A stretch of DNA of 64,000 nucleotides, from contig CAMELV010000010.1 of the NCBI GenBank assembly GCA_945925985.1, positions 1 to 64,000 of the forward strand, read 5' to 3'. Position 1 is the first letter of the stretch. Each line of letters begins with the position of its first letter. The notes beneath the pieces are model-generated. The model did not search any database, had not been told where the DNA came from, and was given only the letters and a program-made list of their open reading frames with translations. This DNA comes from Comamonas sp. lk. GTDB taxonomy: Bacteria > Pseudomonadota > Gammaproteobacteria > Burkholderiales > Burkholderiaceae_C. A program made the position numbers and the translations under genes. Shown piece after piece: positions 29,918 through 60,805 of this stretch.

Positions 29918-29939
29918 CCCCCTGCTTCGTCAGAACCGG

Positions 29940-29969
29940 CCGCAGGTGGCAACGCCTGCGGTTTTTTTT
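29940..29969 (+). terminator. Intrinsic terminator between TRAP binding protein and MR/MLE gene
   Basis: CCGCAGG (29940-29946) - TGGCAACG - CCTGCGG (29955-29961) followed by T8 (29962-29969). Confidence 0.8.
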
Positions 29970-29979
29970 GGAGTATGAA

Positions 29980-31173: not shown

Positions 31174-31210
31174 CGCCCGCTTCATGTCGCCGCTGGTCGC
31201 TTCGTGACGG

Positions 31211-35881: not shown

Positions 35882-36640
35882 TCAGGCCCCCAGGTAGGCG
35901 GCAATCACTGCCGGGTCACCCTGTACCTCGGCCGGGGTACCCAGCGCCAGCACCTGCCCCATGTTCATGCACAACACGCGGTCGGCGGCCTCGGACACCA
36001 GTGACATGTCGTGTTCGACCATGATCACCGTGATGCCCAGGTCTTTCTGGATGTCGTCAATCCAGAAGGCCAGCTCACGGGTCTCTTCCGGGTTAAGGCC
36101 GGAGGCTGGTTCATCCAGCAGCAGCAGGCGGGGTTGGGTGGCCAGTGCGCGCGCCAATTCGACCACCTTGCGCACGCCATAGGGCAGGCCGGCCACCGGG
36201 CTGTTGCGGTAGGGCATCAGATCGAGCAGTTGAATCACGTCTTCGACCTGGTCCCGCGAAGCGGCCTCAGCCGCACGGACCGCCGGGGTCCAGAGCCACT
36301 GCGCTGCAAAGCTGCCGTGCGGAAAGCGGTGCCGGCCCAACAGCAGGTTGTCCAGAACGGTGCCGCCTTCAAACAGTTCGATGTTTTGGAAAGTGCGTCC
36401 GATGCCGCTGTGCACCACCTTATGGCGCGGCAGCGCCGTGATGTCCTGGCCTTCGAACAATACCCGGCCCTGGGTCGGGTCAAACACCCGGGTGATCACG
36501 TTCAGGACCGAGGTCTTGCCGGCGCCGTTGGGGCCAATGATGGCAAACACCTCACCCTGTTCGACCGAGAAACTGACATTGCCGATCGCCTGCACACCAC
36601 CAAAGCGCAGGGACAAATCAGAGACGGAAAACACGCTCAC
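35882..36640 (-). CDS. Branched-chain-type ABC transporter ATP-binding protein (LivG-like)
   Basis: GPNGAGKTSVLNVITRVFDPTQG; VELARALATQPRLLLLDEPASGLNPEE. Confidence 0.92.
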   Translation of the reverse strand: MSVFSVSDLSLRFGGVQAIGNVSFSVEQGEVFAIIGPNGAGKTSVLNVITRVFDPTQGRVLFEGQDITALPRHKVVHSGIGRTFQNIELFEGGTVLDNLLLGRHRFPHGSFAAQWLWTPAVRAAEAASRDQVEDVIQLLDLMPYRNSPVAGLPYGVRKVVELARALATQPRLLLLDEPASGLNPEETRELAFWIDDIQKDLGITVIMVEHDMSLVSEAADRVLCMNMGQVLALGTPAEVQGDPAVIAAYLGA

Positions 36641-37713
36641 TTGTAACGCTCCGACTTCATGTAGCTCTTGCCGCGTTTGAACATGTCTTGCCGGTACAGC
36701 GGAAAGGTTTCAAGAAAGGTCTTGAACTTGATCCAGCGGCCGTTGAGCCCTTTCGGCTCGAAAAGGACAAACAGCGCCAGCACCAAGCCGAAGACGAAGG
36801 TTTCCAGCCCGAACTGTTTGGCGATGTGGTCGGGCAGCAGGGGCTTGATCCGGGAGATGAAGGTCGGCAGCATGCTGATCAGGATGGCGCCCAAGATGGC
36901 ACCACGCAGCGAACCCAGGCCGCCGATGGTGACCATCAGCACCAGCTCAAGCGAGAGAATCAGGCCAAAGCCTTCTGGCGTCAGGAACCCAACATGGTGG
37001 GCCAGCAGGGCGCCACCCAGTCCGGTGACCATGGCAGAGACCACAAAAGCCAGCACCTTGTAACCCGCCACCCAGATGCCCAGGCTGTAGGCCGCAGCCT
37101 CGGAGTCGCGCACCCCCATGAAGGCTCGCCCGGTTTTGGCGCGCATCAGGTTAAGTAAACCCAGCAGCACGATCACCAGCACCACCAGACACAGGTAGTA
37201 GAAAGATTGCAGCTTGGACAAGTCCAGGCCGAACAGCACCGGGCTGTTGACAGAGATGCCGTTAAAGCCGCCAGTCACGCTCTTCCAGCGGCCAATGACA
37301 TGCTCGGTCAGTATGGCAAAGGCCAGTGTGACCATGGCGAGGTAGAGCCCGGATACCCTGATCGCCGGCAGCCCGATGACCAGGCCAATGAGGCCCGTAA
37401 AGGCAGCGGCCAGCAACATCGATGGCACCAGCGGGAACCCATGCGCGAGCAGCCAGGTGTGGGTGTAGGCGCCGATGGCGATGAACGCCGAGTGCCCCAG
37501 CGACACCTGTCCGGTGTAGCCCACCAAGACCATCAGGCCCAGGCTAACAATGCACATGATGAACACGTAACTGAGCTCGCCCACCACATACTTGGGCATC
37601 ACCCATGGGGCGATCAGCAGTGCGGCCATCAGCAAACCGTAAGCCAGCCGGCCGGGCAGGTAGCGCAGCAGGGCGTGGCCGTCGCGGTAGGTGGTGTCGT
37701 AGGCAAAGCGCAT
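36637..37713 (-). CDS. Branched-chain-type ABC transporter permease (LivM-like)
   Basis: 358 aa; GYTGQVSLGHSAFIAIGAYT; ATGA overlap with livG-like. Confidence 0.92.
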   Translation of the reverse strand: MRFAYDTTYRDGHALLRYLPGRLAYGLLMAALLIAPWVMPKYVVGELSYVFIMCIVSLGLMVLVGYTGQVSLGHSAFIAIGAYTHTWLLAHGFPLVPSMLLAAAFTGLIGLVIGLPAIRVSGLYLAMVTLAFAILTEHVIGRWKSVTGGFNGISVNSPVLFGLDLSKLQSFYYLCLVVLVIVLLGLLNLMRAKTGRAFMGVRDSEAAAYSLGIWVAGYKVLAFVVSAMVTGLGGALLAHHVGFLTPEGFGLILSLELVLMVTIGGLGSLRGAILGAILISMLPTFISRIKPLLPDHIAKQFGLETFVFGLVLALFVLFEPKGLNGRWIKFKTFLETFPLYRQDMFKRGKSYMKSERYK

Positions 37714-37726: not shown

Positions 37727-38611
37727 TCAGACCCGACGTCCGTGGGCTTCGCCCAATAGCCCGCGCGGCCAGAGAATCAGCACGCCGATGAGCACGATGT
37801 AGGCCATGGCATCCTTGAAGCCGTCGGGCAGGTAGACCCCGGAAAACTGTTCGATCACGCCCAGCAAGAGGCCGCCCAGGATGGCTCCCGGCACACTGCC
37901 GAACCCCCCCAACACCAAGGCGGCAAGGGCTTTGAGCACCACGATCCACAGACCGATGTCAACCAGCGCAATCGGCGCCAGCAGCAGGCCGCAGACCGCA
38001 GCGATGGCACCTGAGATGGCCCAGACCATTGAGGTCACCCGTTTGACGCGAATGCCGCTCAGGTAGGCGGCAAGTTGGTTTTGCGAGGCCGCCTGGATCG
38101 AGGTGCCAAGAGCGGTTTTTTTAAGAAACCAAAACAGCACCAGCGTGATCAGCAGCGCACAGCCCACAATCGCCAGGCTAAGGTCATTGATCACCAGGGT
38201 GCCTAGCTGTGTTTTCTGGCCGGTCCAGGGGGTGGGGTAGGTGCGTGAGTCGGGCCCGAAAAACATACTGACCAGACCACGCAGCATGAAGGCGATGGCA
38301 ATGGTCAGCATAACCCCCGCAAATTGGGGTTGCCCGACGATCATGCGCATGATGCGGGCGTCGATCAGCCAGCTCAGGGCTGCGGCCAGCAGCACGGTGG
38401 CCAGGGTCGCCAGCCAGAACGGCCAGCCCAGTCCGACGATCAGACCCCAGCCCACAAAGGAGGACGCCATCAGCACGTCACCGTGTGCGAAATTGAGGAC
38501 CTCAGTCGCCTTGTAAGTCAGGACCAGTCCCAACGCCACCAGCGCATAAATGGCGCCGATGGCGACCCCGTTGAGGGTCAGCTGAATCAATTGGGCAAGA
38601 TCGGAATTCAA
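37727..38611 (-). CDS. Branched-chain-type ABC transporter permease (LivH-like)
   Basis: 294 aa; NGVAIGAIYALVALGLVLTYKATEVLNFAHGDVLM; TTG start. Confidence 0.9.
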   Translation of the reverse strand: MNSDLAQLIQLTLNGVAIGAIYALVALGLVLTYKATEVLNFAHGDVLMASSFVGWGLIVGLGWPFWLATLATVLLAAALSWLIDARIMRMIVGQPQFAGVMLTIAIAFMLRGLVSMFFGPDSRTYPTPWTGQKTQLGTLVINDLSLAIVGCALLITLVLFWFLKKTALGTSIQAASQNQLAAYLSGIRVKRVTSMVWAISGAIAAVCGLLLAPIALVDIGLWIVVLKALAALVLGGFGSVPGAILGGLLLGVIEQFSGVYLPDGFKDAMAYIVLIGVLILWPRGLLGEAHGRRV

Positions 38612-38707: not shown

Positions 38708-39937
38708 TCAAGGGTAAACACCGACGCTGCTTAGCCGCTCTACCACCAGCGCGCTGGCGACCCCTGCCGCACCGCAAATGGCAATGCAACCGTAGCGCAG
38801 TTCCCGCCGGTCCAATTCGTCCAGCAGCACACTCACCAGCGCAGCGCCGGTGCAGCCCATGGCATGACCGATGGCGATGGCGCCGCCATTGACATTCACC
38901 CGCTCGTGATCGACGTTCATCTCTTCCATGAAGTGCAGGGCCATGGCGGCAAAGCCTTCATTGATTTCAAACAGGTCGATGTCCGCAGCTTGCAACTGGG
39001 CCCTTGAGATTGCCAACTGGGCTGCCCGCACTGTGCCAGTCAGTGCCAGAGTGCGGTCCGAGCCGGTGTCTGCCATGCCAAGGATGCGGGCCCGTGCGGG
39101 CAAGCCGGCGCGTGCCAGTGCGGCGGCCGATCCCAATAGCACGGCCGCGGCGCCATCCGCCATGGCGGGTGAGTTGCCGGCGTGGTGGCTGTGCACCACG
39201 CCGGCCAGTCCGTAGCGTTGGCACAGCTGTGCATCCCAACCGGCATCACCCCCCTTTGCGCCCCACGCAGCAAAAGACGGCGCCAAGGTGGCGAGTGAGG
39301 CGTGTGTGGTGCTGGCCCGGATGTTTTCGTCGCGGTCTAGCAGCAGTTGGCCATCGTCATCACTCACCGGAACCATGGAGGGCGGCAAGCCGCGAGCAGC
39401 GGCAGCGGCGGCCCGTTGCTGTGAGCTGACCGCGTAGTCGTCGAGTTGCTCCCGGGTGTAGCCGCGTTGGGTGGCGATGGCGTCTGCGGCAATGCCGATG
39501 GGCACCAGGTGCGCCAGGGTCTGGAGTGCCAGGTCATGCGTTAACGCGCCCTGGTCGCTGCCCATGGGCACGCGTGACATCATCTCGACACCGCCGCCCA
39601 AGGCCAGCGTGTCGCCGTAACTGGCTTGCAGCGCAGCGAAATTCACCGCTGACAAACCGGAGGCGCAGTAGCGGTTGATGGTGACAGCGCCCACCGCGTC
39701 ATCCCAGCCGGCCAGCGGCAGTGCCAAGGTGCCTACGCTGGCCCCCTGATCACCGGTTTGGGCTACACAGCCGAAGACGGCGTCGCTCACCTGGCGGGTG
39801 TCCAGCGCAGTGCGGGAACTCAGGGCCGACAGGGCCCGGGCCAGCAGCAGCGCTGGTTTGATGCCGCGCAGGCTGCCTTTGTCATTGCCTTTGCCGCGCG
39901 GCGTGCGCACAGCCTGTGCGATGTAAACGGGGTTCAT
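38708..39937 (-). CDS. Acetyl-CoA acetyltransferase / thiolase
   Basis: AVRTPRGKGNDKGSL; INRYCASGLSAVNFAAL; VNVNGGAIAIGHAMGCTGA; CIAICGAAGVASALVVER. Confidence 0.9.
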   Translation of the reverse strand: MNPVYIAQAVRTPRGKGNDKGSLRGIKPALLLARALSALSSRTALDTRQVSDAVFGCVAQTGDQGASVGTLALPLAGWDDAVGAVTINRYCASGLSAVNFAALQASYGDTLALGGGVEMMSRVPMGSDQGALTHDLALQTLAHLVPIGIAADAIATQRGYTREQLDDYAVSSQQRAAAAAARGLPPSMVPVSDDDGQLLLDRDENIRASTTHASLATLAPSFAAWGAKGGDAGWDAQLCQRYGLAGVVHSHHAGNSPAMADGAAAVLLGSAAALARAGLPARARILGMADTGSDRTLALTGTVRAAQLAISRAQLQAADIDLFEINEGFAAMALHFMEEMNVDHERVNVNGGAIAIGHAMGCTGAALVSVLLDELDRRELRYGCIAICGAAGVASALVVERLSSVGVYP

Positions 39938-39950
39938 GGTGTGGTCCAGC

Positions 39951-40832
39951 TCAATGGGTCGGAGTTTGCATCAGGGTGGTGAAGGCATCGTTGGCGCAGT
40001 TGTAGCCACGCAGGGGCAGGGCACTCAGGTCTGTCAGCTGCGATGCCAACTGCCCGGCTTGCATGCGCAGTGCGTCGGTCTCGCCCACGCCGGCGCGGCG
40101 GATCAGGCCGGCGCCGGCCACCAACACCTCGCCCGACACGTCGCAGGCCGGGCTGGCCAGCCACGCCACCAGGGGCGCGACCAGACCAGGGTCCAGTGCG
40201 CCGGCCATGCTGGCATCCAGGTGAGGTGCGGTCATCTGCGACAAGCCATAGGGGGCAATGGCATTGACCAGCACCCCGTGTCGCTGGCCCTCCAAGGCCA
40301 GCGCGCGCATCAGGCCGATCACCGCCGCCTTAGCGGCCGAGTAGGCTGCCTGACCGATGTTGCCATAGAGGCCTGCACTAGACGTGGTGAGGATCAGCCG
40401 GCCATAGCCTTGCCCAAGCAGCTGCGGCCAAGCGGCATGCGCCAGGTGCAAACTGCCGAAAAAGCTGGTGTCAAAGATGTGGCGGAACTCATCCATGCTT
40501 TGTTTGACAAAGGTGCGCCCGTGGTCGATACCCGCATTGGCCACCACGATGTCCACGCCGCCAAAATGCCGCTTGGCTTCGTCCATCATCTGCAAGCCGC
40601 TGACAGGCTCTGCCACATCACACCAGCTGGCCTGCGCGGTGCCACCCGCCGCGCGAATAGCCTCAACCGTCAGGCTGGCTGAAGTGGCTGCATCTGCCTC
40701 GCCCGCATGGCGCCGGTTGTTGACCAGCACTCGGGCGCCACGGCTGGCCAGATGCAAGGCATAGGCGCGGCCCAGGCCCTTGCCGGCGCCGGTGACGATG
40801 GCGCGTTGGCCTTGAAGGTCCAGCGTGCTCAC
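39951..40832 (-). CDS. SDR family NAD(P)-dependent oxidoreductase
   Basis: LDLQGQRAIVTGAGKGLGRAYALHLASRGARVLVNN; YSAAKAAVIGLMRALALEG; GTG start at 40832 in a GTGA overlap with the upstream gene stop. Confidence 0.87.
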   Translation of the reverse strand: MSTLDLQGQRAIVTGAGKGLGRAYALHLASRGARVLVNNRRHAGEADAATSASLTVEAIRAAGGTAQASWCDVAEPVSGLQMMDEAKRHFGGVDIVVANAGIDHGRTFVKQSMDEFRHIFDTSFFGSLHLAHAAWPQLLGQGYGRLILTTSSAGLYGNIGQAAYSAAKAAVIGLMRALALEGQRHGVLVNAIAPYGLSQMTAPHLDASMAGALDPGLVAPLVAWLASPACDVSGEVLVAGAGLIRRAGVGETDALRMQAGQLASQLTDLSALPLRGYNCANDAFTTLMQTPTH

Positions 40833-41785
40833 CCCGGTTTGCCCCATGGGAAGAAGGCCGGTACCCGTGCCATGTAGGCTGCATAGGTGGGCTTGGTGCG
40901 TGCCAGGTAGCGCTCCTGCATGGGCGTGGCTGAGCCAGCGCTCATGAACCAGGTCACATACAGCGGGCAGGCCAGGGCCAGCCAACCCCAGGGGTGCATC
41001 AACCCCAGCGCACCGAAGCTCCACCAAACCACGGCCTCGCCGAAATAGTTGGGGTGACGCGACAAACGCCACAAGCCGGTGTCCAGCACCATAAGACGGT
41101 CAGTCCGATGGGCCTTGAAGCGCTCCAGTTGGAGGTCGCCCATCACCTGAAAGTAAAAACCCAGGCCAAACGTTGCCAGGGCAATGGCATGCTGCCAGCC
41201 CAGCGCCTGCGGACCCGACGCGACGGCAAGGACCAGGCCCAGGGACCAGAGCCATACGGTCACGCCCTGCATGATGAAAACCTGGAAGTAGCTCCACCAC
41301 CACCAGGCGCCGCCAAAGCGCCTGCGCCAGGCTGCATAACGGCCGTCCTCACCGTGCCCCCGGTTGCGCAGGCCGATATGTAAGGACATGCGCAGGCTCC
41401 ACAGCGCGACCAAAACGACGATCATGATCTCATGGGGAGACCATTGGCCGCGCCATACCACCAGGCTGGTAACCGGTATCGCCACCGCCAGCGGGTAGGC
41501 CACGTCCATGATGCCGCAGTCACGCCGGGCCAGGCTAAGCAGCCAGACCGCGGTCAGGAAAACCGCTGTGATCAAGCCCGAATGCAGGTAGAGTGTGAGA
41601 AAGGCCGAAGCCGGCGAACTGGCGGGCAGCAGCAGCCAAGCCAAGGTGATCACCATCGCCGCGATGGGGTAGACAAACTCGCGGGCGGTGCCCACTCGCA
41701 GTTCCGGCCTGCGCCGAAAAACCAGCAGGCCAGCCATCCAGACCAACCAAAGGCCAGCGGCAAAAAAGAGCAGAGTTGCTGTCAT
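40829..41785 (-). CDS. DUF1295 / steroid 5-alpha-reductase-like membrane protein
   Basis: MTATLLFFAAGLWLVWMAG; C-terminal RLSRHPNYFGEAVVWWSFG motif; ~8 TM. Confidence 0.82.
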   Translation of the reverse strand: MTATLLFFAAGLWLVWMAGLLVFRRRPELRVGTAREFVYPIAAMVITLAWLLLPASSPASAFLTLYLHSGLITAVFLTAVWLLSLARRDCGIMDVAYPLAVAIPVTSLVVWRGQWSPHEIMIVVLVALWSLRMSLHIGLRNRGHGEDGRYAAWRRRFGGAWWWWSYFQVFIMQGVTVWLWSLGLVLAVASGPQALGWQHAIALATFGLGFYFQVMGDLQLERFKAHRTDRLMVLDTGLWRLSRHPNYFGEAVVWWSFGALGLMHPWGWLALACPLYVTWFMSAGSATPMQERYLARTKPTYAAYMARVPAFFPWGKPG

Positions 41786-43263
41786 GGCAGGCTCAGCAAA
41801 CCGTCGCGCACATCGGCGCCATTGGCCCAGCAGGAGTGGGTGCCGCTGCACAGTTTGTGGGGTAGCTCAATGCGACATACCGGCCCTTCGGCAAAGCGCT
41901 TGCAGTCGATCAGCAGCGCTTCGGAGCGCTGGGTGTTCTCGTTGGTGACAAAGGTCACCAGGTAGCCATCGTCTTCATCTGTGGCGTTGATGCGTGGTGC
42001 GAACGGCGCTTCGCTGGCGTACTGTCCCTCAGGCAACGCGATTTGCCACGACGCCCCGGTCAGCAGGTCATGCTTGACGTAGCCGTTGAACAAAAACCAG
42101 CCTGGCACCTGCACGGCACTGTAGATGTAGCGGTAGTGGCGCCCGGCGTAGCGCTGGTTGATCATGCCGAACTCCAGCGTGCGATCGTCCAGGCGCTGCT
42201 CGCTGGTTTGCCCGGTGGCCAGGTTGAAGCGCCAGCGGTGCAAGCGGGTCTTCATTTTGTACTGGTCCAAGTAGGACATCATGCGCTCGTAGCCTTTGGG
42301 TGCCCCGTCAAAGTTCTTGGGCTCAGGCTCCTCTTCGAAATACCCATCGAGCACGATCTCGTCACCTTCTTCATAAGCATTGAGCCAATGCAGCACAAAG
42401 GTCGGCGCCGCCTCAAACCAGCGGATGTCCTGCGGCTGTCCCCGCCGGGGAATGATGGCAAAACGCGAAGGCTGGTCAGCATGAAACTTGACCACATGCT
42501 TGCCCTGCTTGAGCAGCTCCGGGTCCCAGTAGAGGGGAAAGTCATTGAGGATGGCGTAATGCTCGGTAAAGCACATGTCGTGCGGCAGCCGTGGCCCCGG
42601 CAGCGGTATTGGCACGTAGTGCACCAGTTGGTCGTGCCGGTCCACCACGCCGTAGTGCATGTAGGGGGCATGCTTAGAGTAATTGAAGAACAGCATCTCG
42701 CCCGTGGCTTCGTCGACCTTCATGTGCGCCGAAATGCCATCCAGCGGCGACCAGGCCGGGATGCCCTGTTGCGCTAGTGTGAACGGGTCTAGCCGGTAGC
42801 CCTCGCCGCATTGGTAGTAGGACGTGAATGCGCGTCCGGCGTGCACCACCACATCGGTGCTCGACGCATCCTTGATCGAGCCATGCGCCCCCCAGCCAGG
42901 CCGGGCTGACAGTGCCGGGTTTTCCATCAGGCCAGCCCAGAGCCGTTTGCCGGCCTCCTGTTCGGCGCTGAGGCCTTTGGTTTGTACAAAGCGGTTGCGG
43001 TAACTGGCTTTGCCGTCTTGGAAGCTGATCATGTGAACCATGCCGTCACCGTCAAACGGGTGGTAACGGCCGATCGACCGGTAGACCGGGTTCTGGGTGT
43101 TGCGCAGGTAAATACCGTCAATGTCATCGGGAATTTTGCCCGAGAGTACCGGCATGTCGGTCGCGTTAACCTCTTCGAGCAGCGGTGTCCAGGCCCCTTG
43201 CAGGTAGGGGTGGTCACCTGGCTCAATGTCAGATTCAAGACGGCGGATCAGCTCGGTAGTCAT
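41782..43263 (-). CDS. Carotenoid oxygenase (CCO) family protein, copy 1
   Basis: 493 aa; four putative Fe(II) His contexts DGISAHMKV, GPRLPHDMCF, FVLHWLNAYEEGD, GTHSCWA; FDGDGMVHMISF. Confidence 0.9.
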   Translation of the reverse strand: MTTELIRRLESDIEPGDHPYLQGAWTPLLEEVNATDMPVLSGKIPDDIDGIYLRNTQNPVYRSIGRYHPFDGDGMVHMISFQDGKASYRNRFVQTKGLSAEQEAGKRLWAGLMENPALSARPGWGAHGSIKDASSTDVVVHAGRAFTSYYQCGEGYRLDPFTLAQQGIPAWSPLDGISAHMKVDEATGEMLFFNYSKHAPYMHYGVVDRHDQLVHYVPIPLPGPRLPHDMCFTEHYAILNDFPLYWDPELLKQGKHVVKFHADQPSRFAIIPRRGQPQDIRWFEAAPTFVLHWLNAYEEGDEIVLDGYFEEEPEPKNFDGAPKGYERMMSYLDQYKMKTRLHRWRFNLATGQTSEQRLDDRTLEFGMINQRYAGRHYRYIYSAVQVPGWFLFNGYVKHDLLTGASWQIALPEGQYASEAPFAPRINATDEDDGYLVTFVTNENTQRSEALLIDCKRFAEGPVCRIELPHKLCSGTHSCWANGADVRDGLLSLP

Positions 43264-43280
43264 AAGAACTCCTTGGTGGG

Positions 43281-44198
43281 TCAGTCGGGCTTATCAGAAA
43301 ACGAAACCTCCCATGGCAAGACCGGCGCACGGCAGGCGCTGCACAGGACCTTGGGCACGAAGCGGTGACCACAGGCTTTGTGGACGGGTCGGATAGCACT
43401 GGGTTGTTGCAGGTAGTCGCGGCTGGCCCAAGTGGAAAAGCAGACGAGGTAGCCAAACAGGTCTCGGCTCGCCGGTGTCAGACGGTAGCGCATGCGTCGT
43501 GCGTCGGCGACATCGGGCTGCGCCAGCAACAGGCCAGTCTCAACCATGCCACTGAGACGTCGGGCCAGCACGCTGCTGACAATTCCCAGCACCCGACCCA
43601 GTTCGTCAAAGTAGTGACAGCCCAGCACCACCGCTGTCACGATCAACAGTGACCAGCGGTCCACTCGCAGGCCCTGGCCCATACTCTGCGTGCTGGCGCT
43701 GGTGACCCTGGCATTGCGGCTCAGGTTTTCGGCCAGCAGCAATTCCGGCACGGGTTGCAGGCTGAAGGTCAGGTCATTCATGCCGGTTTTCTCGCTGCAG
43801 GCGGTGCAGGCCAGCACGGGCAGGAATGGGTGGCCGCAGCTTTTGTGGCGCAAGTAGCCCGGCAAGCTGCGGGCGCGCTGGCCCCAGCGTCGCTCCCACA
43901 TCCAGATCATCAGCACCTGGTCATAGAGTTTGAGCCCGGCCTGTGTAAGGTGGTAGGCCTGGCGTCGCGGGCGTTCCTGGTAAGGTCGCTGGCGCAGCAG
44001 TCCCAGCTTGACCAGTTTCCCGAGCCGGTCGGTCAGGGTGGAGCGTGGGATGGTCAGTTGCACCTGCCAATCCTCAAACCGCTTCACGCCGGTGAAAGCG
44101 CCCAGCAGCACGGCCGCCGTCCATCGGTCGCCCATGACCTTGAGGCCGTGGTTGAGCGTGCTGCTCAACAGGGCGTCGTGGGTGAGTTGCAGGTCCAC
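43281..44198 (-). CDS. Tandem HxlR-type winged-helix transcriptional regulator with two CGH-x(8)-CxxC motifs
   Basis: First HTH VMGDRWTAAVLLGAFTGVKRFEDWQ...IPRSTLTDRLGKL; second VDRWSLLIVTAVVLGCHYFDELGRVLGIVSSVLARRLSGM; CGHPFLPVLACTAC and CGHRFVPKVLCSAC. GTG start at 44198 (track 44267). Confidence 0.85.
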   Translation of the reverse strand: MDLQLTHDALLSSTLNHGLKVMGDRWTAAVLLGAFTGVKRFEDWQVQLTIPRSTLTDRLGKLVKLGLLRQRPYQERPRRQAYHLTQAGLKLYDQVLMIWMWERRWGQRARSLPGYLRHKSCGHPFLPVLACTACSEKTGMNDLTFSLQPVPELLLAENLSRNARVTSASTQSMGQGLRVDRWSLLIVTAVVLGCHYFDELGRVLGIVSSVLARRLSGMVETGLLLAQPDVADARRMRYRLTPASRDLFGYLVCFSTWASRDYLQQPSAIRPVHKACGHRFVPKVLCSACRAPVLPWEVSFSDKPD

Positions 44199-44224
44199 TA
44201 TGGGCGGCAGCGGCAGCGGCAGGG

Positions 44225-45460
44225 TCAGGCCGGGCAGGCCACCACAAAGCTCACCACGGTGGCGCATGAGCCGCCAATGTTGAGCGTCTGAATGCGCTGC
44301 GCCCCTTCAATTTGACAATCACCGGCGGTGCCGGTGGCCTGTCTCGCCGCGTCAAACAGCATGCGCGTGCCGGTGGCGCCCACCGGGTGGCCGCATCCGA
44401 TCAGACCGCCACTCATGTTGACCGGGCAGCGGCCGCCGGGCTCGATGCTGCCATCCTCCACCGCCTGCCAGCTTTGGCCTGGCGCGGTCAGCCCCAAGTG
44501 GTCGATCGCCATGTATTCGGTGGTGGTGAAGCAATCGTGGGTTTCGACGCCCTGCATGGCATCGATCCCGCCCACGCCGGCGCGTCGCCAGGCGTCCTCG
44601 ATGGTCTGGCGGACATGGGGAAACACATAGGGCTCTGACGCGCTGCGGACCAGCTTGTCCTTGAGGCGCAGGCCGGCATTGCGGTGGCCCCAGCCGGCGA
44701 TGTGCGGCAACTTGGCCACGCTGCTGCCGCGGCGCTGGGCGTAGGCCCGGGCGAAGCTGGCCGAGGCCAGCACCACGGCGCAGGCGCCATCGGTGATCTG
44801 GCCGCAGTCCTGGCGTCGGGTGCCGGGCTCGATCACCGGGTTGGCCTCGTCGTCATCGGTAAAACTCAGGGCGTCAAAGGCCCACTTGCGGGTTTGGGCC
44901 AGCGGGTTGCGCCGGGCGTGGCTGTAGTTGAGCTCGGCGATCCGGTTCAGGTGTTTGCGGTCCAGCCCGTAGCGCCGCTCGTACTCCTGCGCCAACAGGC
45001 CAAAGGCCGCCGGCCACATGAAGGTGCAATCAATGTCCTCATGGCCTTGCCAGGCGGCAGCGTTCTGGTTTTGGGACGCCACATTGCCCGGCAGGTTCTT
45101 GAACTCCTCCACCCCGAGCACCAGCACGCAGTCGTAGCGGCCGGCTTCGATTTCGGCCATCGCGCTCAGGACGCCCAGCGACGAAGAGGCACAGGCCCCT
45201 TCGTGCCGCATGGCGGGCACGCCCCACAGCTCGGGCACCACCTGTGCCACCATCGCGCCCAGATGGGCCTGCTGGCGCTGCAATTCACCAAAGGCGTTGC
45301 CGACATGGATGCTGGCGATGGACGCGGCATCCAGCTCGCAGGCCGCCAGGGCGCCCAGCGTGGCCTCGCGCGTGATGTCCGAAATATCCTGGCCCTGGCG
45401 GGACCAGACCTTGGCGAAATCGGTCTGGTAACCACCCAGCACATAGACGGGTTCATGCAT
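44225..45460 (-). CDS. Thiolase family protein / acetyl-CoA acetyltransferase (SCP-x-like)
   Basis: 411 aa; MRHEGACASSSLGVLSAMAEI; GVETHDCFTTTEY; MSGGLIGCGHPVGATGTRMLFDAA. Confidence 0.88.
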   Translation of the reverse strand: MHEPVYVLGGYQTDFAKVWSRQGQDISDITREATLGALAACELDAASIASIHVGNAFGELQRQQAHLGAMVAQVVPELWGVPAMRHEGACASSSLGVLSAMAEIEAGRYDCVLVLGVEEFKNLPGNVASQNQNAAAWQGHEDIDCTFMWPAAFGLLAQEYERRYGLDRKHLNRIAELNYSHARRNPLAQTRKWAFDALSFTDDDEANPVIEPGTRRQDCGQITDGACAVVLASASFARAYAQRRGSSVAKLPHIAGWGHRNAGLRLKDKLVRSASEPYVFPHVRQTIEDAWRRAGVGGIDAMQGVETHDCFTTTEYMAIDHLGLTAPGQSWQAVEDGSIEPGGRCPVNMSGGLIGCGHPVGATGTRMLFDAARQATGTAGDCQIEGAQRIQTLNIGGSCATVVSFVVACPA

Positions 45461-46445
45461 GTTGGTCTCCTGCTGCCAGCCAGGGCAGTTGTTTGAATCG
45501 ATTCATGGCTTGCTGGTAATCGCGCGCCAGTTCATCCACCACGGTGGCGACGCTGGCCACCGCCTTGATCGGGCCCAGGCCCTGCCCGGCGGCCCAGACC
45601 TCGGTCCATTTCTTGCCGGCAAAGGACTGGTTGCTGTCGTATTGGCGCCCTGGTGCGTCGGGCATGTTGTCGGGGTCCAGACCTTGGGCGCGCAGTGAGG
45701 GCTTGAGCCAGCTGGCGGCGGTGCCGGTCACGCCGGCACTCACCACCAGGTCGTCGATGCTGCTGTCCACCACCATTTGCTTGTACTCGGGCGGCGCCAG
45801 GCTCTCGGCGGTGGGGATGAAGCGGGTGCCCATGTAGACCAGGTCGGCCCCACTGGCCACCGCGCCGGCCACGCCCCAGCCATCGCCAATGCCGCCGCCC
45901 GTGATGACATAGCCGTCAAAAAACTCTCGCACCGCGCTGACAAAGGCAAACGGCGACAGGAAGCCGGTGTGGCCGCCCGCGCCCGCGCACACGCAGGCCA
46001 GCCCATCGGCGCCGGCGGCCACCGCTTTTTTGGCCAACCCGACCGAGATGACGTCGGCGATCACCAGGCCGCCGTAGGCGTGCACTACCTCAATCGCTGG
46101 CTTCGGGCTGCCCAGCGCCGTCACCACCACCGGTGGCTTGAAGCGGGCCACCAGGGCCAGGTCTTCCGCCAGCCGGGTGTTGGACGAGTGCGTCACCAGG
46201 TTGGCGCACCAGGGGCCAAGGGTGGCGGCAGGTTGCGCATCGCGCGCCTGGGCCAGCCCTTCGGTGATCTGGTGCATCCAGTCGGCCAGCACCGACACCG
46301 GTCGCGCATTGGGTGTTGGAAAGGCGCCGATGATGCCGGCCTTGCAGGCCGCCAGGACCAGTTCGGGCCCGGAGATCAAAAACATTGGCGCTGCCACCAC
46401 AGGCAGACGCAGGACAAATGGCAAGGGACGGTTCGCCAAAGTCAT
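45453..46445 (-). CDS. NAD(P)H-dependent flavin oxidoreductase / nitronate monooxygenase family
   Basis: 330 aa; APMFLISGPELVLAACKAGIIGAFPTPNAR; GADGLACVCAGAGGHTGFLS; ITGGGIGDGWGVAGAVASGADLVYMGTRFI. Confidence 0.9.
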   Translation of the reverse strand: MTLANRPLPFVLRLPVVAAPMFLISGPELVLAACKAGIIGAFPTPNARPVSVLADWMHQITEGLAQARDAQPAATLGPWCANLVTHSSNTRLAEDLALVARFKPPVVVTALGSPKPAIEVVHAYGGLVIADVISVGLAKKAVAAGADGLACVCAGAGGHTGFLSPFAFVSAVREFFDGYVITGGGIGDGWGVAGAVASGADLVYMGTRFIPTAESLAPPEYKQMVVDSSIDDLVVSAGVTGTAASWLKPSLRAQGLDPDNMPDAPGRQYDSNQSFAGKKWTEVWAAGQGLGPIKAVASVATVVDELARDYQQAMNRFKQLPWLAAGDQHA

Positions 46446-47173
46446 GGCTTCTCCTGGTGGGATTGGGTGGACAGGGCCAGTTGCAGTAGCAGCCGCGCGA
46501 GGGCTGGCGCCTGCTCGATGGGGGTTTGATGGCCGGCCTCGTCCAGCCAGACCAGCTGGGCTGCCGGGATCAGGTCAGCGAGTTCCTGGGACAGGGGCGG
46601 TGGTGTGACCTTGTCCTCGCGCCCGCACACCACCAGCACCGGCTTCGCGAGGGTGGCCAGCATAGGCCGGTGATCGGACCGAGTCATGACGGCGCGGGTC
46701 TGCCGAATGGCGGTGGCGGCACCGACCTCATGCAGCATGCGGCGCATGCCGTCAACCCAGCCCGTGTTGGCCAGGCTGTTGGGGTGCAGGCTGAACGGAA
46801 TGATGCCATCCACTGTGCGGGCAAAGTTACGCTCGAATGCGCCAATGGTTTTTTCGCGCACCGCCAGGGTGTCAGCGGTTTCGATGGCGGCAGACGAGTC
46901 GACCAGCGCCAAGGCCTGAACTCGCTGGCCGTGCCGAGCCAGCAGCTCGACGGCCACATAGCCACCCATGGAAAAGCCGCAGACGGTCAGGCTGGCTTCA
47001 GTCGGCAAATCTGCCACCAGAGCCCAGGCATCGGCGGCCATGGCCGGGATCGAGTCTTGTGTCAGTACATCGGCCACACGCACATCCAGGGTCGGCTCCA
47101 GGTCGGCCCGCACGGCATCCCAGATCGCTCTGGTGTTGAGCATGCCGGGAATCAGCAGCAGCACGGGCTTCAT
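46442..47173 (-). CDS. Alpha/beta hydrolase
   Basis: VCGFSMGGYVAVELLA nucleophile elbow; WLDEAGHQTPIEQ. Confidence 0.88.
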   Translation of the reverse strand: MKPVLLLIPGMLNTRAIWDAVRADLEPTLDVRVADVLTQDSIPAMAADAWALVADLPTEASLTVCGFSMGGYVAVELLARHGQRVQALALVDSSAAIETADTLAVREKTIGAFERNFARTVDGIIPFSLHPNSLANTGWVDGMRRMLHEVGAATAIRQTRAVMTRSDHRPMLATLAKPVLVVCGREDKVTPPPLSQELADLIPAAQLVWLDEAGHQTPIEQAPALARLLLQLALSTQSHQEKP

Positions 47174-48909
47174 ACAGCCTCCGGGGCCAGCGCGCGGGCT
47201 TGTTCCCGCAGCTCGCGCTTGAGAATTTTGCCCACCGGATTGCGCGGCAGCGCATCAATCTGGAGCACATATTCGGGCAACTTATAAGCGGCTACGCGCT
47301 TTTGGTCGCGCAAGAACTGCACCAGATCACCCAGGGACACAGTCTGCCCTGGTGCGTTGACCACGCAGGCGCACAGCTTCTCGCCCAGTATCTGGTCGGG
47401 CACGCCCACCACCGCCACCTCCTGCACGCCGGGGCACGCCGCCAGCAGGCTTTCAATCTCTTCGCTGGAGATGTTCATACCGCCACGAATCACCAGGTCC
47501 TTCGACCTTCCCACATAGCGGTAGTACTGCAATTGGTCGCCGGCAATCTCGAACAGGTCACCGGTTCGGTAGAAGCCCTGTTCGTCGAAGGCGCGAGCCG
47601 TCAAGTCGGGGGCCTTGAAGTAGCCACTGAAGACTGTGGGCCCCTGAAAGCGCAATTCGCCGGGTTGACCGGCTTCAGTAATGTCGGCGCCACTGAGCAG
47701 GTCAACCAGTCTGGTTTTGATTTTTCGGGTGGTGGAGACGCTCCACTCGAGGCCTGGCACACCGACGCGAGGAAAGTACTGCGCGCGCATGGCTGGGTCA
47801 GGAATGTCAATGTCGCCGCCGGACAGTGCGGCGCCTTCATTGGAGCCAAAGTAGTTGACGATCTGCACCCCGTGCCGCTCGGCAAAACCACTCACCATCC
47901 ATTCTGAAAGTGGCGCCGAGCCTGAACCAATGCGTTTAAGGCGCTGAAAATCAATGCCGGCCAGCAGCCGGTTGTCTTGCAGCAGCATGTTCAGGATGGC
48001 AGGTGCTGCCACCGTGTAGTCGATGCGCTCTTCGCGCAATTGCTGCAGGAAGACGGACAAGCTGAAGGGTTGGTGTTGCACCACCGTGCCGCCCAGCACC
48101 AGCCAGGTGGCCAGAGCGCTCGAGAGGCCAGACATGTTGACCAACGGAAATGGGTTCAGCAGGCGCGCGCCAGGTTCAAGTTGGCCTGCCTCGATGATGC
48201 TGGGCGGCACAATCAGCCACTCATTGTGGCTGCGAGGTACCCCCTTGGGTGCTGCTTCTGTGCCCGAGGTCCAGCAGATGCTGAACACATCGTTGGCGGT
48301 GACGGCGGCGTCCCGTTCGGCCTGCGCCAGCTGTGCCTGGTGATCGGGGGTGAGTGCGTCGGGCCAGGCCGCTTCGATGCTGACCACGCCTGCCGGCGCA
48401 TCGGGGCCCCAGGCCAGCACCTTGGTCAGGCTGGCGTGTGCAGCGCCGAGTGCGCAGTACATGGCGGCGGCTTGATGGCTGTGGCCCATGCGGCCGATGT
48501 GGGTGAAGGTGATCGCGGCCGTGGCTGCAGTGATCGTCAGAATATGCGCCAGCTCATGTTCGCGGTACTGGGCTGGAACCGGTGTCACGATCAAACCCAG
48601 CCTGGCGCAGGCCAGGTAGACCACATACTGCTCCACGCCGTTGGGCAGATGAACCACCACGATGTCATCGCGACGCAGGCCCTGTTGCAACAACACCAGG
48701 CTGAATTTGTCGATGTCCTCAGCCAGTTGGTGCCAGCTCAGGCGCCGCTGCACACTATGGGCGAAATCACTGCGGTTGCAGGCGTCGACCACGGCCTCCG
48801 CATCGCCGCGCGCGCTGACCTGCTGCACAAACAGATCCCATAGCGTTTGCTGGCCCCACCATCCTTTTGCGGTGTAAGCGGCGATAGTTTCCGGCTGGAC
48901 CAGCAGCAT
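47170..48909 (-). CDS. Class I adenylate-forming (AMP-binding) acyl-CoA ligase
   Basis: ICWTSGTEAAPKGVPRSHNEW; GDLFEIAGDQLQYYRYVGRSKDLVIRGGMNISSEEIESLL; start set at ATG 48909. Confidence 0.9.
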   Translation of the reverse strand: MLLVQPETIAAYTAKGWWGQQTLWDLFVQQVSARGDAEAVVDACNRSDFAHSVQRRLSWHQLAEDIDKFSLVLLQQGLRRDDIVVVHLPNGVEQYVVYLACARLGLIVTPVPAQYREHELAHILTITAATAAITFTHIGRMGHSHQAAAMYCALGAAHASLTKVLAWGPDAPAGVVSIEAAWPDALTPDHQAQLAQAERDAAVTANDVFSICWTSGTEAAPKGVPRSHNEWLIVPPSIIEAGQLEPGARLLNPFPLVNMSGLSSALATWLVLGGTVVQHQPFSLSVFLQQLREERIDYTVAAPAILNMLLQDNRLLAGIDFQRLKRIGSGSAPLSEWMVSGFAERHGVQIVNYFGSNEGAALSGGDIDIPDPAMRAQYFPRVGVPGLEWSVSTTRKIKTRLVDLLSGADITEAGQPGELRFQGPTVFSGYFKAPDLTARAFDEQGFYRTGDLFEIAGDQLQYYRYVGRSKDLVIRGGMNISSEEIESLLAACPGVQEVAVVGVPDQILGEKLCACVVNAPGQTVSLGDLVQFLRDQKRVAAYKLPEYVLQIDALPRNPVGKILKRELREQARALAPEAV

Positions 48910-48910
48910 C

Positions 48911-50356
48911 TCAGTAGCCGCGTGCCAGGCGTTCGCCGCTGACCCAGGTGGCGTGAAAGCCGTTGGGCACGCGTTGCGGCAGGCGGATACGGCAGACCGG
49001 GCCCTGGGCCACGTCATGCGCGTCAAAGATGGTGACCCACGAGCTTTTGCTTAGGTCGTCCCACATGAAACCGACCAGGTAACCATCGTCTTCGGCCTGC
49101 CAGTTGTCCTTGGGGGCGAAGGGGGCCTCACTGAACCACTTGTGCACGCCGGCGTGGTAGGTCGTGCAGCTGTCTTTTTCAAGGTCATAGCGGGCGAAGC
49201 CACAGAAGCGGGGGTCTTCGGCGCGGTTGCTGCGGCCCATCAGCACGTTCCAGGAGTAGCGGGTCTTGTGGCCCTGCATCCAGGAGTTGATCACCGGGAA
49301 CTCCTGGTTGATGATGTCGTCAATGACCCGCTCCTTGGTCTGCCCAGTGCGCAGATTGAAGCGCCACTCGTAGAACATGAAGTCATGCTCCAGGTTGGCC
49401 AGCATCTTGGGGAAGCGCTCCACGTCGACCTTGCCGCGCATGTCGGTCGGCAGCCTAAATGGGGTACCGGTCATCACAATCTCGGTGCCGCCCTGGCCGT
49501 CGTCTTCTTCCCAGGCGTTGGACACGTGGTACATGTAGGTCGGGTTGGCCTCGAACCAGCGGATTTGATCCGGCGTGCCATGGCGCGGTACCACGCCAAA
49601 GCGCGAGGGCAGCGTGTGGTGAAACTTGAGCTTGTGCCGGCCGGCGGCAAACGCGTCCATGTCATAGAACAGCGGCAGGTCGTGCAGGATGGTGTAGTTG
49701 GGCGTGATCGCCATGTCGTGCGGCAGGCGCGGCCCGGGCAACTGCACCGGCATGAAGGTCTTGAGCTGGCCCAGACGGTCCATCACGCCATAGTGCATGT
49801 AGGGCGCCTCCTTGCCATAGGCAAAAAACAGGAACTCGCCGGTACGTTCATCGACCCGCGAATGGGCCGAAATCGGCAGGCCCACCAGCCGCGGGTCGAC
49901 CGGCAGCCGACCGACGGTGGACAGGTCGCCCGGTCGGCACTGGTAGACCGAGCCGCCCAAGTACCACATCGACACCAGGTGCCCGGCGTAGTACTTGACA
50001 TCGGTGTTGGAGGTGTTCTTGATCGGCATGTCAGGCCGGTCTTTGCGCGGCGGGTCCTTGATGCCCTGCCACAGCGCCGTGCCTGCGCTGAGTTCTTCTT
50101 GTAGGCTGTCGGTCATGACCCAGCGGTTTTGGTACTGTGCTTTGCCATTGGCGAAGCGCACGGCGTGCAGCATGCCGTCGCCGTCAAACCAGTGGTAGCG
50201 GCCGGGCGCCTCGAAACGGCGGTTAGGGCCGTTTCGCACGTACATGCCGGTCAGGTCCTTCGGGATTTCGCCCTCGATATCGGTCAGGTCGAGCGTTAGC
50301 TCTTGGTCGATCGGCGCAAAGCCGCCATTCAGGACCGGGATTTCGTTGTAGCCCAT
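48911..50356 (-). CDS. Carotenoid oxygenase (CCO) family protein, copy 2
   Basis: 481 aa; LPISAHSRVDE, GPRLPHDMAITPN, YMYHVSNAWEEDD, GFHATWVSGE; YHWFDGDGMLHAVRF. Confidence 0.9.
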   Translation of the reverse strand: MGYNEIPVLNGGFAPIDQELTLDLTDIEGEIPKDLTGMYVRNGPNRRFEAPGRYHWFDGDGMLHAVRFANGKAQYQNRWVMTDSLQEELSAGTALWQGIKDPPRKDRPDMPIKNTSNTDVKYYAGHLVSMWYLGGSVYQCRPGDLSTVGRLPVDPRLVGLPISAHSRVDERTGEFLFFAYGKEAPYMHYGVMDRLGQLKTFMPVQLPGPRLPHDMAITPNYTILHDLPLFYDMDAFAAGRHKLKFHHTLPSRFGVVPRHGTPDQIRWFEANPTYMYHVSNAWEEDDGQGGTEIVMTGTPFRLPTDMRGKVDVERFPKMLANLEHDFMFYEWRFNLRTGQTKERVIDDIINQEFPVINSWMQGHKTRYSWNVLMGRSNRAEDPRFCGFARYDLEKDSCTTYHAGVHKWFSEAPFAPKDNWQAEDDGYLVGFMWDDLSKSSWVTIFDAHDVAQGPVCRIRLPQRVPNGFHATWVSGERLARGY

Positions 50357-50367
50357 GGTTGATTCCT

Positions 50368-52086
50368 CTACTTGGAGTTAATTGCGGCATCAGCCCGGGC
50401 GGGCCGACGCGATTGGGTGACACAGAAGCGGTTGGCCACAAAGGCCAGGTGCGTCAGGGCGGCGTTACCGGCGGGGTTCAGCCCGGTGACGTGGTAATCA
50501 CTGTAGGCGGCGGCAAAATTGAGCGGCATGGCGCCGGTCAGGTTGATCGTGAGTTGGGCGCCGGCGCGGGCGTAGGCGTCCTGCGCCTGGGTGATGTAGG
50601 CCTCGTCGGTGGCATACACAAAAGCTGTGAGCCCGCCGAATTCACGCACATCGCGTGTGGCCTGGGCCAGCGCATCATCGGCGTCGTCGCAGGCGATCAC
50701 AAAGCTGACCGGGCCAAAGCGTTCTTCGCCGTACAGGTCGCGCTCGGCCTTGCTGACCTTGAGCATCAGTGGTGTGCTGGTGCGGGCATCTGGCCATTCC
50801 GGGTGCGGGTAGGCTTGCGGCGCCAACAAGACCTGGCCGCGCTGCGCGCCTTGGCCATGCAACTGCGCCAGCAACGCCAAAGTCTGCTGTGACTGGACAG
50901 TGGCCAATATCATCGCGGCTTTTTTCGGGTCTCGCGTCAAGGCGGCTACCGCCTCCGCCAGTCGCCGCGCCACCTCATCCAGGCTGACCAGGCCCTGTGG
51001 TGTTTGCACCCCGGCAGCCGGCACATAGATGTTTTGCGGGCTGGTGCACATTTGGGCACTGAACAGGCACAGTGTGGTGGCCAGACTGCGCACCACTGCG
51101 TCCAGATCGGTGACCGATGCCAGCACCACCGTGTTGCAGCCGGCGGTCTCGGTAAAGCTCAGCGCCGGGTGGGCGTTTTGCTCTACCCACTGGCCAAAGC
51201 GCACGCTGCCGGTGAAGTCGACCATCGCCGTGGCCGGGTGCTTGACCAATTGCTTGCCAATCGGCGCGGCCTGGCTGTCCAGGGCCAGAGTGACCAGGTT
51301 CGGGTCAAAACCCGCTGCCTGCAACACTTGCCGGAACACGCGCACCGTCAGTGCCATGGGCAACACGGTGGCCGGGTGCGGCTTGACGATGACGGCGTTG
51401 CCGGTGGCCAGGCTGGCCATCATCGACGGCCAGGCGTTCCAGGTCGGGAAGCTGGCACAAGAAAAACAGACTGCGACGCCGCGCGGCACCAGCCGGTAGG
51501 TCTTGTCGAGCACGATGGTCGAGGGGCCAAACTGCCGCTCCCAGCGGGCTTGCGGCGCAACAGCATGCTGCGCTTGGTGGGCATAGACCAGGGCCTCAAT
51601 GGCCCGGTCGAGCGCATTCACGCCGGAGCCGGCATAGGCCATGTTGAAGCTTTGGCCAGCGGTGTGCATCACGGCGTTCACGATGTCAAACAGGTGCTCG
51701 CGGTAGATCGTTTCCACCACCTCCAGCAACAGGCCGATGCGCTCGTCGATCGGTGCCCGGGCCCAGTCGGTTATGGCCTTGCTTGCCGCTTTGAATAGCT
51801 GGTCTGGATCGGCCTGCGGGTAGAGGATGCCCAGCGGGCGCTGCGTGTAGGGGGAAATTTCTTCGCCCAGGGTGCCAACGGTGCCAGGTTGGGCAAGGTC
51901 AAAGTGGTGGGGCTGGTCCTGACCGAGACGGGCGCTGAAGGTCGCCAGACCTTTGGCTTGAGCGGTTTCGGCGTCCGGGTATTTGCCAGGCAGTTCTGGG
52001 AAGGGGCTCCAGCAGTCTCGCTGGGCGCAGGCCAACTGCGCCCGCTTGAACCGCGCCTGGTGGGTTTTGAAGTAGCTGTTTGTCAT
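50368..52086 (-). CDS. paaN: PaaN-type phenylacetic-acid-degradation aldehyde dehydrogenase
   Basis: Aldehyde-dehydrogenase fold with PaaN-like N-terminus (FPELPGKYPDAETAQAKG); SCASFPTWNAWPSMMASLATGNAVIVKPHP; SAQMCTSPQNIYVP. Confidence 0.82.
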   Translation of the reverse strand: MTNSYFKTHQARFKRAQLACAQRDCWSPFPELPGKYPDAETAQAKGLATFSARLGQDQPHHFDLAQPGTVGTLGEEISPYTQRPLGILYPQADPDQLFKAASKAITDWARAPIDERIGLLLEVVETIYREHLFDIVNAVMHTAGQSFNMAYAGSGVNALDRAIEALVYAHQAQHAVAPQARWERQFGPSTIVLDKTYRLVPRGVAVCFSCASFPTWNAWPSMMASLATGNAVIVKPHPATVLPMALTVRVFRQVLQAAGFDPNLVTLALDSQAAPIGKQLVKHPATAMVDFTGSVRFGQWVEQNAHPALSFTETAGCNTVVLASVTDLDAVVRSLATTLCLFSAQMCTSPQNIYVPAAGVQTPQGLVSLDEVARRLAEAVAALTRDPKKAAMILATVQSQQTLALLAQLHGQGAQRGQVLLAPQAYPHPEWPDARTSTPLMLKVSKAERDLYGEERFGPVSFVIACDDADDALAQATRDVREFGGLTAFVYATDEAYITQAQDAYARAGAQLTINLTGAMPLNFAAAYSDYHVTGLNPAGNAALTHLAFVANRFCVTQSRRPARADAAINSK

Positions 52087-52088
52087 GT

Positions 52089-52547
52089 TCAGGGGCTGCG
52101 CTGCCACAGCAGTCGGTGATGGCGGGCTACTGCCGAGCCGGGCATGGTGTCAGAGGCCGACAGGGCCAACTGGCCGGGCGCTGGCCAGTCGATCCAGCGG
52201 ACTTGTTCGGTGCCGACAAAATTGGGGTTCAGCGAATGGGTGACGCTGTGCACCACCTGCAGCCGGCCGTCCTGACTTTGGACACGGTAGCGACCGGCGT
52301 ATTGGAAAAAACTCTCAAAAGCGGCCAGCCGCTCCGCCACCGGGGCACTGCGCACGCTCTCGGACGATAATTTGGCCCGATTGGCCTGGGCAATGCAGGC
52401 GCTCATGCTGCCGTCGTGGGTGTAGAGGATCATGCCGGTGGCTGCGGCGCCAAAGGGCAGCGTCGGTGCGCGGCCATCCCCGTAACTGATGTCCCAACGC
52501 ACCAAATGCCATGTGCCGACCAAGGGATTACCCGAATCACCCAACAC
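52089..52547 (-). CDS. Lipocalin-like domain protein
   Basis: NPLVGTWHLVRWDISYGDGRAPTLPFGAAATGMILYTHDGSMSACI; GTG start at 52547 preceded by AAGGA. Confidence 0.75.
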   Translation of the reverse strand: MLGDSGNPLVGTWHLVRWDISYGDGRAPTLPFGAAATGMILYTHDGSMSACIAQANRAKLSSESVRSAPVAERLAAFESFFQYAGRYRVQSQDGRLQVVHSVTHSLNPNFVGTEQVRWIDWPAPGQLALSASDTMPGSAVARHHRLLWQRSP

Positions 52548-52802
52548 TGTTCCTATCCTTACTTTCTTAGTTGGACTGATGTTAAGCGGTTTTTGTGGGC
52601 TTTGACAAGCATCTGGGCCAGTCTTGGCGGTCACCTTGGCGTCAATCGGGTAGCCTGACGTACCCGCTCGGCGCCTATCCGGCCCCACCGCTTTTCAGCG
52701 GAGTACAGTCAGCCTGGGCGCACCAAGCGGCGGCGGCAATACAAGCAAGGCTCGTACCTGCAGGGGTGTCACCGCTACTGCGCCAACCCAAGGAAGAAAC
52801 CC

Positions 52803-55027: not shown

Positions 55028-55069
55028 GCTGGCACCGGGCGCTGATGGCACAGGCCCGACAATGCGGCG

Positions 55070-60778: not shown

Positions 60779-60805
60779 ATCCTGATGGTTAAAAAGTAGC
60801 CCTGC

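Follow-up and report, generated by a model that had tools for sequence, protein, structure and literature searches.

A conserved gene cluster of Comamonas sp. lk is very likely a dedicated operon for alkene cleavage and CoA-dependent catabolism

Introduction

What is the role of a bacterial operon that combines carotenoid-oxygenase-type genes with genes for coenzyme A (CoA) chemistry? The question arises from a 64,000-nucleotide stretch of DNA from Comamonas sp. lk (contig CAMELV010000010.1, positions 1 to 64,000; "the window"), in which an earlier note had described twelve co-directional genes with tiny gaps or overlaps, two of them encoding carotenoid oxygenases (CCOs). These genes very likely form a dedicated operon for alkene cleavage and CoA-dependent catabolism. 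The favored reading of its chemistry, with a probability of about 0.5, is O2- and CoA-dependent catabolism of a dissolved conjugated alkene that bears or gains a carboxylate, that is, an acid of the apocarotenoid or terpenoid type. We infer the reactions and the substrate from gene content, conservation, co-occurrence, catalytic residues, the clade of the CCOs, and the features that these enzymes lack relative to lignostilbene dioxygenases (LSDs) and to long-loop plant enzymes. The grouping itself is more than chance, given a neighborhood that recurs in many genera and the perfect co-occurrence of two of its genes, NMO and thiolase 2.

Organization of the operon

How far does the operon extend? 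The twelve genes lie on the minus strand and fill the interval from 52547 to 38708, in the order first described, with junctions of −43 to +17 bp; profile searches matched them to their families. Past thiolase 1, after 96 bp, genes for LivH, LivM, LivG, LivF, a FadD11-like AMP ligase and LivK follow on the same strand, ending at 32016. This stretch is probably a continuation of the operon, which would make the unit a catabolic operon equipped with an importer. Thus, the extent originally proposed, 38708-52547, has correct coordinates, but the unit is probably larger and reaches into an ABC importer (32016). The neighbor upstream of the lipocalin gene (at 52803) is transcribed in the opposite direction, and the run therefore has one natural start. 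The genes are listed here in order of transcription, with percentages giving identity to the operon of the compared genome G083.

52089..52547, minus strand: LIPOC, a Lipocalin_5 protein, first gene, GTG start (PF13924, 101 bits)
50368..52086, minus strand: PaaN-type aldehyde dehydrogenase (ALDH; TIGR02288; ETAG and QMC motifs), predicted to convert aldehyde to acid
48911..50356, minus strand: CCO2, predicted non-heme iron alkene-cleaving dioxygenase (PF03055, 393 bits)
47170..48909, minus strand: LIG, AMP-forming acyl-CoA ligase (PF00501, PF13193; TSGTEAAPKG and GKILK motifs); start at 48909 likeliest
46442..47173, minus strand: ABH, alpha/beta hydrolase (PF00561), weakly PcaD-like (PcaDC 106 bits, under cut-off)
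45453..46445, minus strand: NMO, FMN TIM-barrel protein of the NMO/FabK type (PF03060); best structure matches FabK-type
44225..45460, minus strand: THL2 (thiolase 2), SCP2-type thiolase (PF22691, Thiolase_C_1 type; PRK06289)
43281..44267, minus strand: tandem HxlR regulator (PF01638, two stretches, 90.6 bits); start uncertain, 44198 possible
41782..43263, minus strand: CCO1, second predicted non-heme iron alkene-cleaving dioxygenase (PF03055, 416 bits)
40829..41785, minus strand: DUF1295 membrane protein, Steroid_dh-related (PF06966, 173 bits; Steroid_dh 28 bits)
39951..40847, minus strand: SDR dehydrogenase, predicted 3-hydroxyacyl-type (PF00106; TGAGKGLG and YSAAK motifs)
38708..39937, minus strand: THL1 (thiolase 1), classical thiolase (PF00108/PF02803; TIGR01930 309 bits, over cut-off)
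37727..38611, minus strand: LivH-type permease; LivH in the same place in G083 (85%) and Pararhodobacter
36637..37713, minus strand: LivM-type permease (84%); UrtC/LivM models under cut-off
35882..36640, minus strand: LivG-type ATPase (88%)
35089..35877, minus strand: LivF-type ATPase, conserved in G083 (PRK11614 LivF 228 bits, under cut-off)
33234..35081, minus strand: second AMP-forming acyl-CoA ligase, FadD11-like (PF00501; NF038343 436 bits, under cut-off); place conserved
32016..33179, minus strand: LivK-type periplasmic solute-binding protein (PF13458); place conserved

Conservation and co-occurrence

How widely is this arrangement conserved? CCO1 homologs, mostly distant, are found in 79 of 301 genomes of the family, and orthologs at 79%–88% identity lie in operons of other genera. 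Two genomes, G083 (L036:5932-18569) and G187 (L038), contain the whole arrangement with the same four CCO genes. In G083, the CCO genes are followed by those for DUF1295, SDR, thiolase 1, LivHMGF, the ligase and LivK, at 61%–88% identity; the G187 contig ends inside thiolase 1. A scan of named genomes found the gene set in Rhodoferax, Limnohabitans, Polaromonas, Curvibacter, Variovorax, Xylophilus, Ramlibacter and Pararhodobacter, with full versions in several Comamonadaceae and in Pararhodobacter. These have up to four CCO genes, so the pair described in the earlier note holds for the window operon but not for some of its relatives. A reduced core, consisting of a CCO with LIG, NMO and/or thiolases, occurs in Bacillus, Neobacillus, Brevibacillus, Amycolatopsis, Nonomuraea and Chloroflexota. 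Herbidospora combines a CCO with LIG and HxlR, and an Anaerolineae contig (L125) has NMO-CCO-LIG-LIPOC-THL2-THL1 in one run. LIPOC is kept in 33 of 89 CCO loci (loci of at least 9 kb). The core of CCO, ligase, NMO and thiolase is also present in Cupriavidus and Sphingopyxis, with versions carried by Cupriavidus plasmids and by the Sphingopyxis granuli plasmid pRW412b; the latter version has insertion sequences on both sides and is therefore probably mobile. It also includes a TonB receptor and a ring-hydroxylating oxygenase (L136). A conserved-neighborhood search had been proposed as a check on the operon, and the gene set does recur across genera and phyla.

Co-occurrence gives a second line of evidence. 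NMO orthologs (at least 68% identity) and thiolase-2 orthologs (at least 75%) are found in exactly the same 16 of the 301 genomes, all of which hold cluster-type CCOs. One of the 16, G206, is fragmentary, with a CCO2 fragment (86%) that adjoins LIG. With the 21 genomes of the CCO clade placed at random, the chance of this co-occurrence is ~1e-22, relatedness being ignored. The set is missing from three further genomes in the window's genus and is therefore an accessory trait. Two genomes (G296 and G004; loci L139 and L140) have thiolase-2 relatives (57%–60%) with another ligase and SDR genes and no CCO; these clusters look like a sister pathway and could hint at shared chemistry.

The CCO enzymes

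What kind of CCOs does the operon encode? Both are full-length and score above the PF03055 cut-off of 27. Four iron-binding histidines, H165, H213, H277 and H468 of CCO2, are invariant in 26 aligned CCOs, and CCO1 and CCO2 are predicted to cleave C=C bonds with O2. The best PDB match of both is plant CCD1 (~240 bits), with LsdA at ~162–165 bits. A structural model of CCO2 (pLDDT 87.8, pTM 0.89) suggests a fold closest to CCD1 and VP14 and then to LsdA, by small margins. A tree was built with LsdA, NOV1, LSD4, PbLSD, CCD1 and VP14 as references, each represented by its aligned part, and without ACO or mammalian enzymes. In it, all 28 cluster CCOs group together in a single clade (100/99) that spans four phyla. 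This clade is sister to CCD1/VP14 and a Nostoc protein rather than inside that group, and the cluster clade and CCD1/VP14 together fork apart from the LSDs (100/100).

Residues and loops separate the cluster CCOs from both groups of reference enzymes. LSDs hold the 4-hydroxyl of the stilbene by Tyr101 and Lys134 (PMC8191317). In the alignment, both residues are kept in the four LSD references and in a Novosphingobium homolog, and neither is kept by any cluster CCO; the columns in CCO2 and CCO1 contain Ile/Leu and Tyr. Against the NCBIfam LSD equivalog, which has a cut-off of 800, the scores are 224 and 212 bits. A classical LSD identity was rejected on the residue and clade tests. The loop after the first helix is 15–23 residues long in cluster CCOs, 34–35 in CCD1/VP14 and 18–19 in LSDs. 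The long loop of CCD1 is hydrophobic, and in CCD1/VP14 it is presumably part of the membrane-contacting region. The short loop and the absence of Tyr101 and Lys134 suggest that the cluster CCOs are soluble enzymes acting on a soluble substrate other than a 4-hydroxystilbene.

The genome has a third CCO gene outside the window (L049:7216-14046), in a set with genes for HxlR, a thiolase, an alpha/beta hydrolase, TctC and a CaiB-type CoA transferase. Sets related to this one are found in Cupriavidus plasmids. Other Burkholderiaceae CCOs (L033, L034 and L035) include one, L034, that a PDB score of 331 bits to PbLSD marks as LSD-like. In the tree, L034 and L035 fall among the LSDs, although Phe/Glu occupy the positions of Tyr101/Lys134 in these two proteins.

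A proposed pathway

How might the gene products work together? The proposed pathway would begin with import of the acid by LivKHMGF; PDB matches of LivK gave no pointer to a ligand. Solute-binding receptors inside or beside the clusters are of the LivK, TctC and probable TRAP types, which are used for amino acids and carboxylates, and in relatives TctC or TRAP receptors may also take part in import. A recurrent extra gene between the hydrolase and NMO proved to be a TctC receptor and not an enzyme. CCOs would then cleave C=C bonds to give aldehydes, with paralogs perhaps acting on different bonds or regio-isomers, and the PaaN-type ALDH would oxidize the aldehydes to acids. An acid product is expected because this ALDH keeps the catalytic Glu and Cys.

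LIG, whose closest structures are aryl-acid and fatty-acid ligases, and the FadD-like ligase would make CoA esters. Reduction of enoyl or enone double bonds could fall to NMO, a possible enoyl or enone reductase with a GAGGHTG-type motif in 55 of 55 sequences, and to the DUF1295 protein, a possible enone reductase. ABH is possibly a thioesterase or lactonase. The chain would be shortened by the SDR dehydrogenase, thiolase 2 and thiolase 1. Thiolase 2 carries the SCP2-type motifs GACASS (with the nucleophilic Cys), HDCF and GHPVGATG; HDCF and GHPxGATG are present in 45 of 45 sequences, and its structure matches include SCP2-type thiolases with HDCF aligned. It is predicted to perform thiolysis of 3-oxoacyl-CoA. 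SCP2 thiolases take branched and bulky 3-oxoacyl-CoAs, so thiolase 2 may be suited to branched substrates, which hints at isoprenoid skeletons. An enoyl-CoA hydratase gene, as needed for beta-oxidation, accompanies four cluster versions. Regulation would be by the tandem HxlR protein, which has two CGHxFx..CxxC motifs; most close orthologs have one or two, and these motifs could bind metal. Gene content fits the route suggested in the earlier note, from alkene cleavage through aldehyde oxidation and CoA activation to thiolytic shortening.

Which substrate class?

An apocarotenoid or terpenoid acid is favored because of the affinity of the CCOs to CCD1/NCED, the failed LSD residue test, the SCP2-type thiolase and the DUF1295 protein. 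Several observations weigh against this substrate class or the pathway as drawn. The window operon is without genes for an enoyl-CoA hydratase or an acyl-CoA dehydrogenase, and DUF1295 and SDR genes are not in every version. CCO2 homologs (70%–72%) occur without ligase, NMO or thiolases in ~15 freshwater loci (L080-L095, L024, L088), which may be eroded or ancestral forms. LIG is at least as similar to aryl-acid adenylating enzymes as to fatty-acid ligases, and the Sphingopyxis version adjoins the alpha subunit of an aromatic-ring-hydroxylating oxygenase. BoxB is present in 13 of the 16 operon carriers versus 148 of 285 others (P = 0.019, uncorrected), a mild enrichment that fits an aromatic product. 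These last three points support a different substrate, an aromatic alkene derived from lignin or plant phenolics (a non-classical stilbene, a diarylbutadiene or a phenylpropenoid acid), which is a tentative but serious alternative. CCOs would then yield aryl aldehydes, the PaaN-type enzyme aryl acids, and LIG aroyl- or arylpropenoyl-CoA, with the SDR dehydrogenase and thiolases deacetylating beta-oxidatively toward benzoyl-CoA (box pathway). The TctC receptor is closest to a terephthalate-binding protein, and lignin-dimer pathways cleave stilbenes and diguaiacylbutadiene, a diarylbutadiene, with enzymes of the CCO/LSD family (PMC12997858); both count for an aromatic substrate, the first of them for the favored reading as well. 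It is weakened by the absence of Tyr101 and Lys134 from every cluster CCO, by the separation of the cluster clade from the LSDs, and by a text search of the same lignin-dimer review that turned up no mention of a thiolase. We lean toward the terpenoid or apocarotenoid class. Of the substrates named in the earlier note, apocarotenoids and terpenoids are thus preferred, while phenolic stilbenes have lost ground on the same residue and clade evidence.

Could the operon instead act on the cell's own pigments? Turnover or tailoring of endogenous carotenoids or retinoids in the membrane, in the manner of ACO or CCD1, is improbable. CCD1 and VP14 are the nearest characterized relatives, and a third SQS_PSY copy (possible crtB) in the window genome may be a phytoene-synthase-like gene. 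However, such a third copy is present in only 5 of the 16 carriers, the long CCD1/VP14 loop is absent, and the importers and CoA ligases suggest that the substrate is a soluble acid from outside the cell. Intact membrane carotenoids are similarly disfavored by the missing loop and by transporters with solute-binding proteins. Even less credible is a phenylacetate-type aromatic cluster with CCO genes as passengers. The ALDH does pass the PaaN_2 model (TIGR02288; 593.0 bits, cut-off 578.75), but no PaaA or PaaC was found in the genome (94.8% complete), where the single weak match, 27.9 bits, is the BoxB locus. "PaaN" is therefore not for phenylacetate here. As this ALDH is the only PaaN copy, the phenylacetate pathway is ruled out within the limits of a genome that is 94.8% complete; moreover, the CCOs are what stays constant in the conserved neighborhood. 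An equally slight chance attaches to generic fatty-acid-type genes brought together by accident or by shared regulation without a single pathway. Thiolases, SDR, ligase and Liv transporters are indeed common families, but ortholog co-occurrence and a co-directional order kept across genera and phyla argue against such a grouping. The favored terpenoid or apocarotenoid reading can be extended, at somewhat less than even odds, to a broader proposal: a pan-bacterial CCO clade, distinct from LSDs and plant CCD1/NCED, may define an undescribed O2- and CoA-dependent pathway by which bacteria of fresh waters, soils and sediments mineralize a dissolved unsaturated acid of the apocarotenoid or terpenoid type, with paralogs cleaving successive double bonds and the SCP2-type thiolase taking the branched fragments.

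Surrounding genes and signals

A possible sigma-70-like promoter (52579..52608, minus strand) lies upstream of LIPOC; it is weak, with a 9/12 match, and has its position as sole support. Such sites are no commoner than in shuffled sequence, and scans for promoters and terminators were uninformative. Beyond the start of the operon, positions 52803-56125 contain phosphoesterase, kinase and PRK11768-type kinase genes, homologs of which lie near CCO2 in many freshwater Comamonadaceae. For example, in one solitary freshwater locus (L094) the CCO2 homolog adjoins kinase-USP and phosphoesterase genes, the same neighbors as those beside the window operon, and many other such loci are near a PRK11768-type kinase gene. 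These common neighbors indicate a shared chromosomal site. A conserved APH gene beside CCO2 in 22 loci was considered as a pathway kinase and rejected, since the window copy passes the PRK11768 model, which we take to represent an SrkA-type stress kinase; the gene is a marker of the chromosomal site.

Other catabolic genes lie further out. Positions 58767-63999 (minus strand) contain genes for a class II aldolase, a cytochrome P450 and a LivFGMH-type transporter, and look like a separate catabolic cluster. On the other side, positions 27005-31909 contain TRAP genes (DctQ, DctM, DctP), an enolase-superfamily enzyme gene (MR_MLE) and an SDR gene. An IlvD/EDD dehydratase gene (25110-26846) adjoins this group, which looks like sugar-acid use.

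Functional implications

What are the implications of such an operon? Bacterial CCO genes usually receive the names of carotenoid or lignostilbene enzymes, and by the tests run the present clade is neither. It comes with a ready-made pathway, an importer and a regulator, in hosts from lakes, ponds, soil and bioreactors, and in some cases on plasmids. If the proposal is correct, it adds a route for the breakdown of dissolved unsaturated plant or algal compounds. It would also be a source of new alkene-cleaving enzymes that are soluble, as many as four from one operon, with cultured hosts in Polaromonas, Variovorax, Curvibacter and Cupriavidus.

Comparison with known systems

How does the operon relate to systems that are already known? 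Alkene-cleaving CCOs are established in bacterial catabolism, in the case of lignostilbene. The open-access literature searched, which leaves most subscription journals out of scope, gave no description of this CCO clade, of the CoA-dependent gene set or of its breadth, in agreement with the earlier note, which recognized no named pathway. A Mycobacterium genomic-island paper does name a carotenoid oxygenase, listed outside the island, and so does not describe the cluster.

One close parallel is with the LSDs (LsdA, NOV1, LSD4 and PbLSD) and the lignin-dimer pathways, which likewise use bacterial catabolic iron dioxygenases of the CCO family, followed by aldehyde dehydrogenases, and share the short loop. 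The cluster CCOs differ in forming their own clade without Tyr101 and Lys134, and their module has a CoA ligase, an SCP2-type thiolase, NMO, Lipocalin_5 and a tandem HxlR regulator. Plant CCD1 and NCED/VP14 (carotenoid 9,10- and 9-cis-epoxycarotenoid dioxygenases) are the nearest characterized clade by sequence, tree and CCO2 fold; in contrast to these enzymes, the cluster CCOs have a loop at least 11 residues shorter and lie in catabolic operons with importers. Synechocystis ACO and the mycobacterial 8'-apo-carotenoid 13,14-cleaving dioxygenase (NF052295) belong to the same family. Among NCBIfam models, CCO2 scores best with NF052295, but the score of 247 bits is far under the cut-off of 675, and neither enzyme has a known link to this type of operon. 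The PaaN_2 model is passed by an ALDH that is here coupled to CCOs, in a genome without PaaA/PaaC. Finally, thiolase 2 resembles SCP2-type thiolases in its structure matches and its HDCF motif, and differs in being a bacterial protein within a predicted alkene-cleavage operon.

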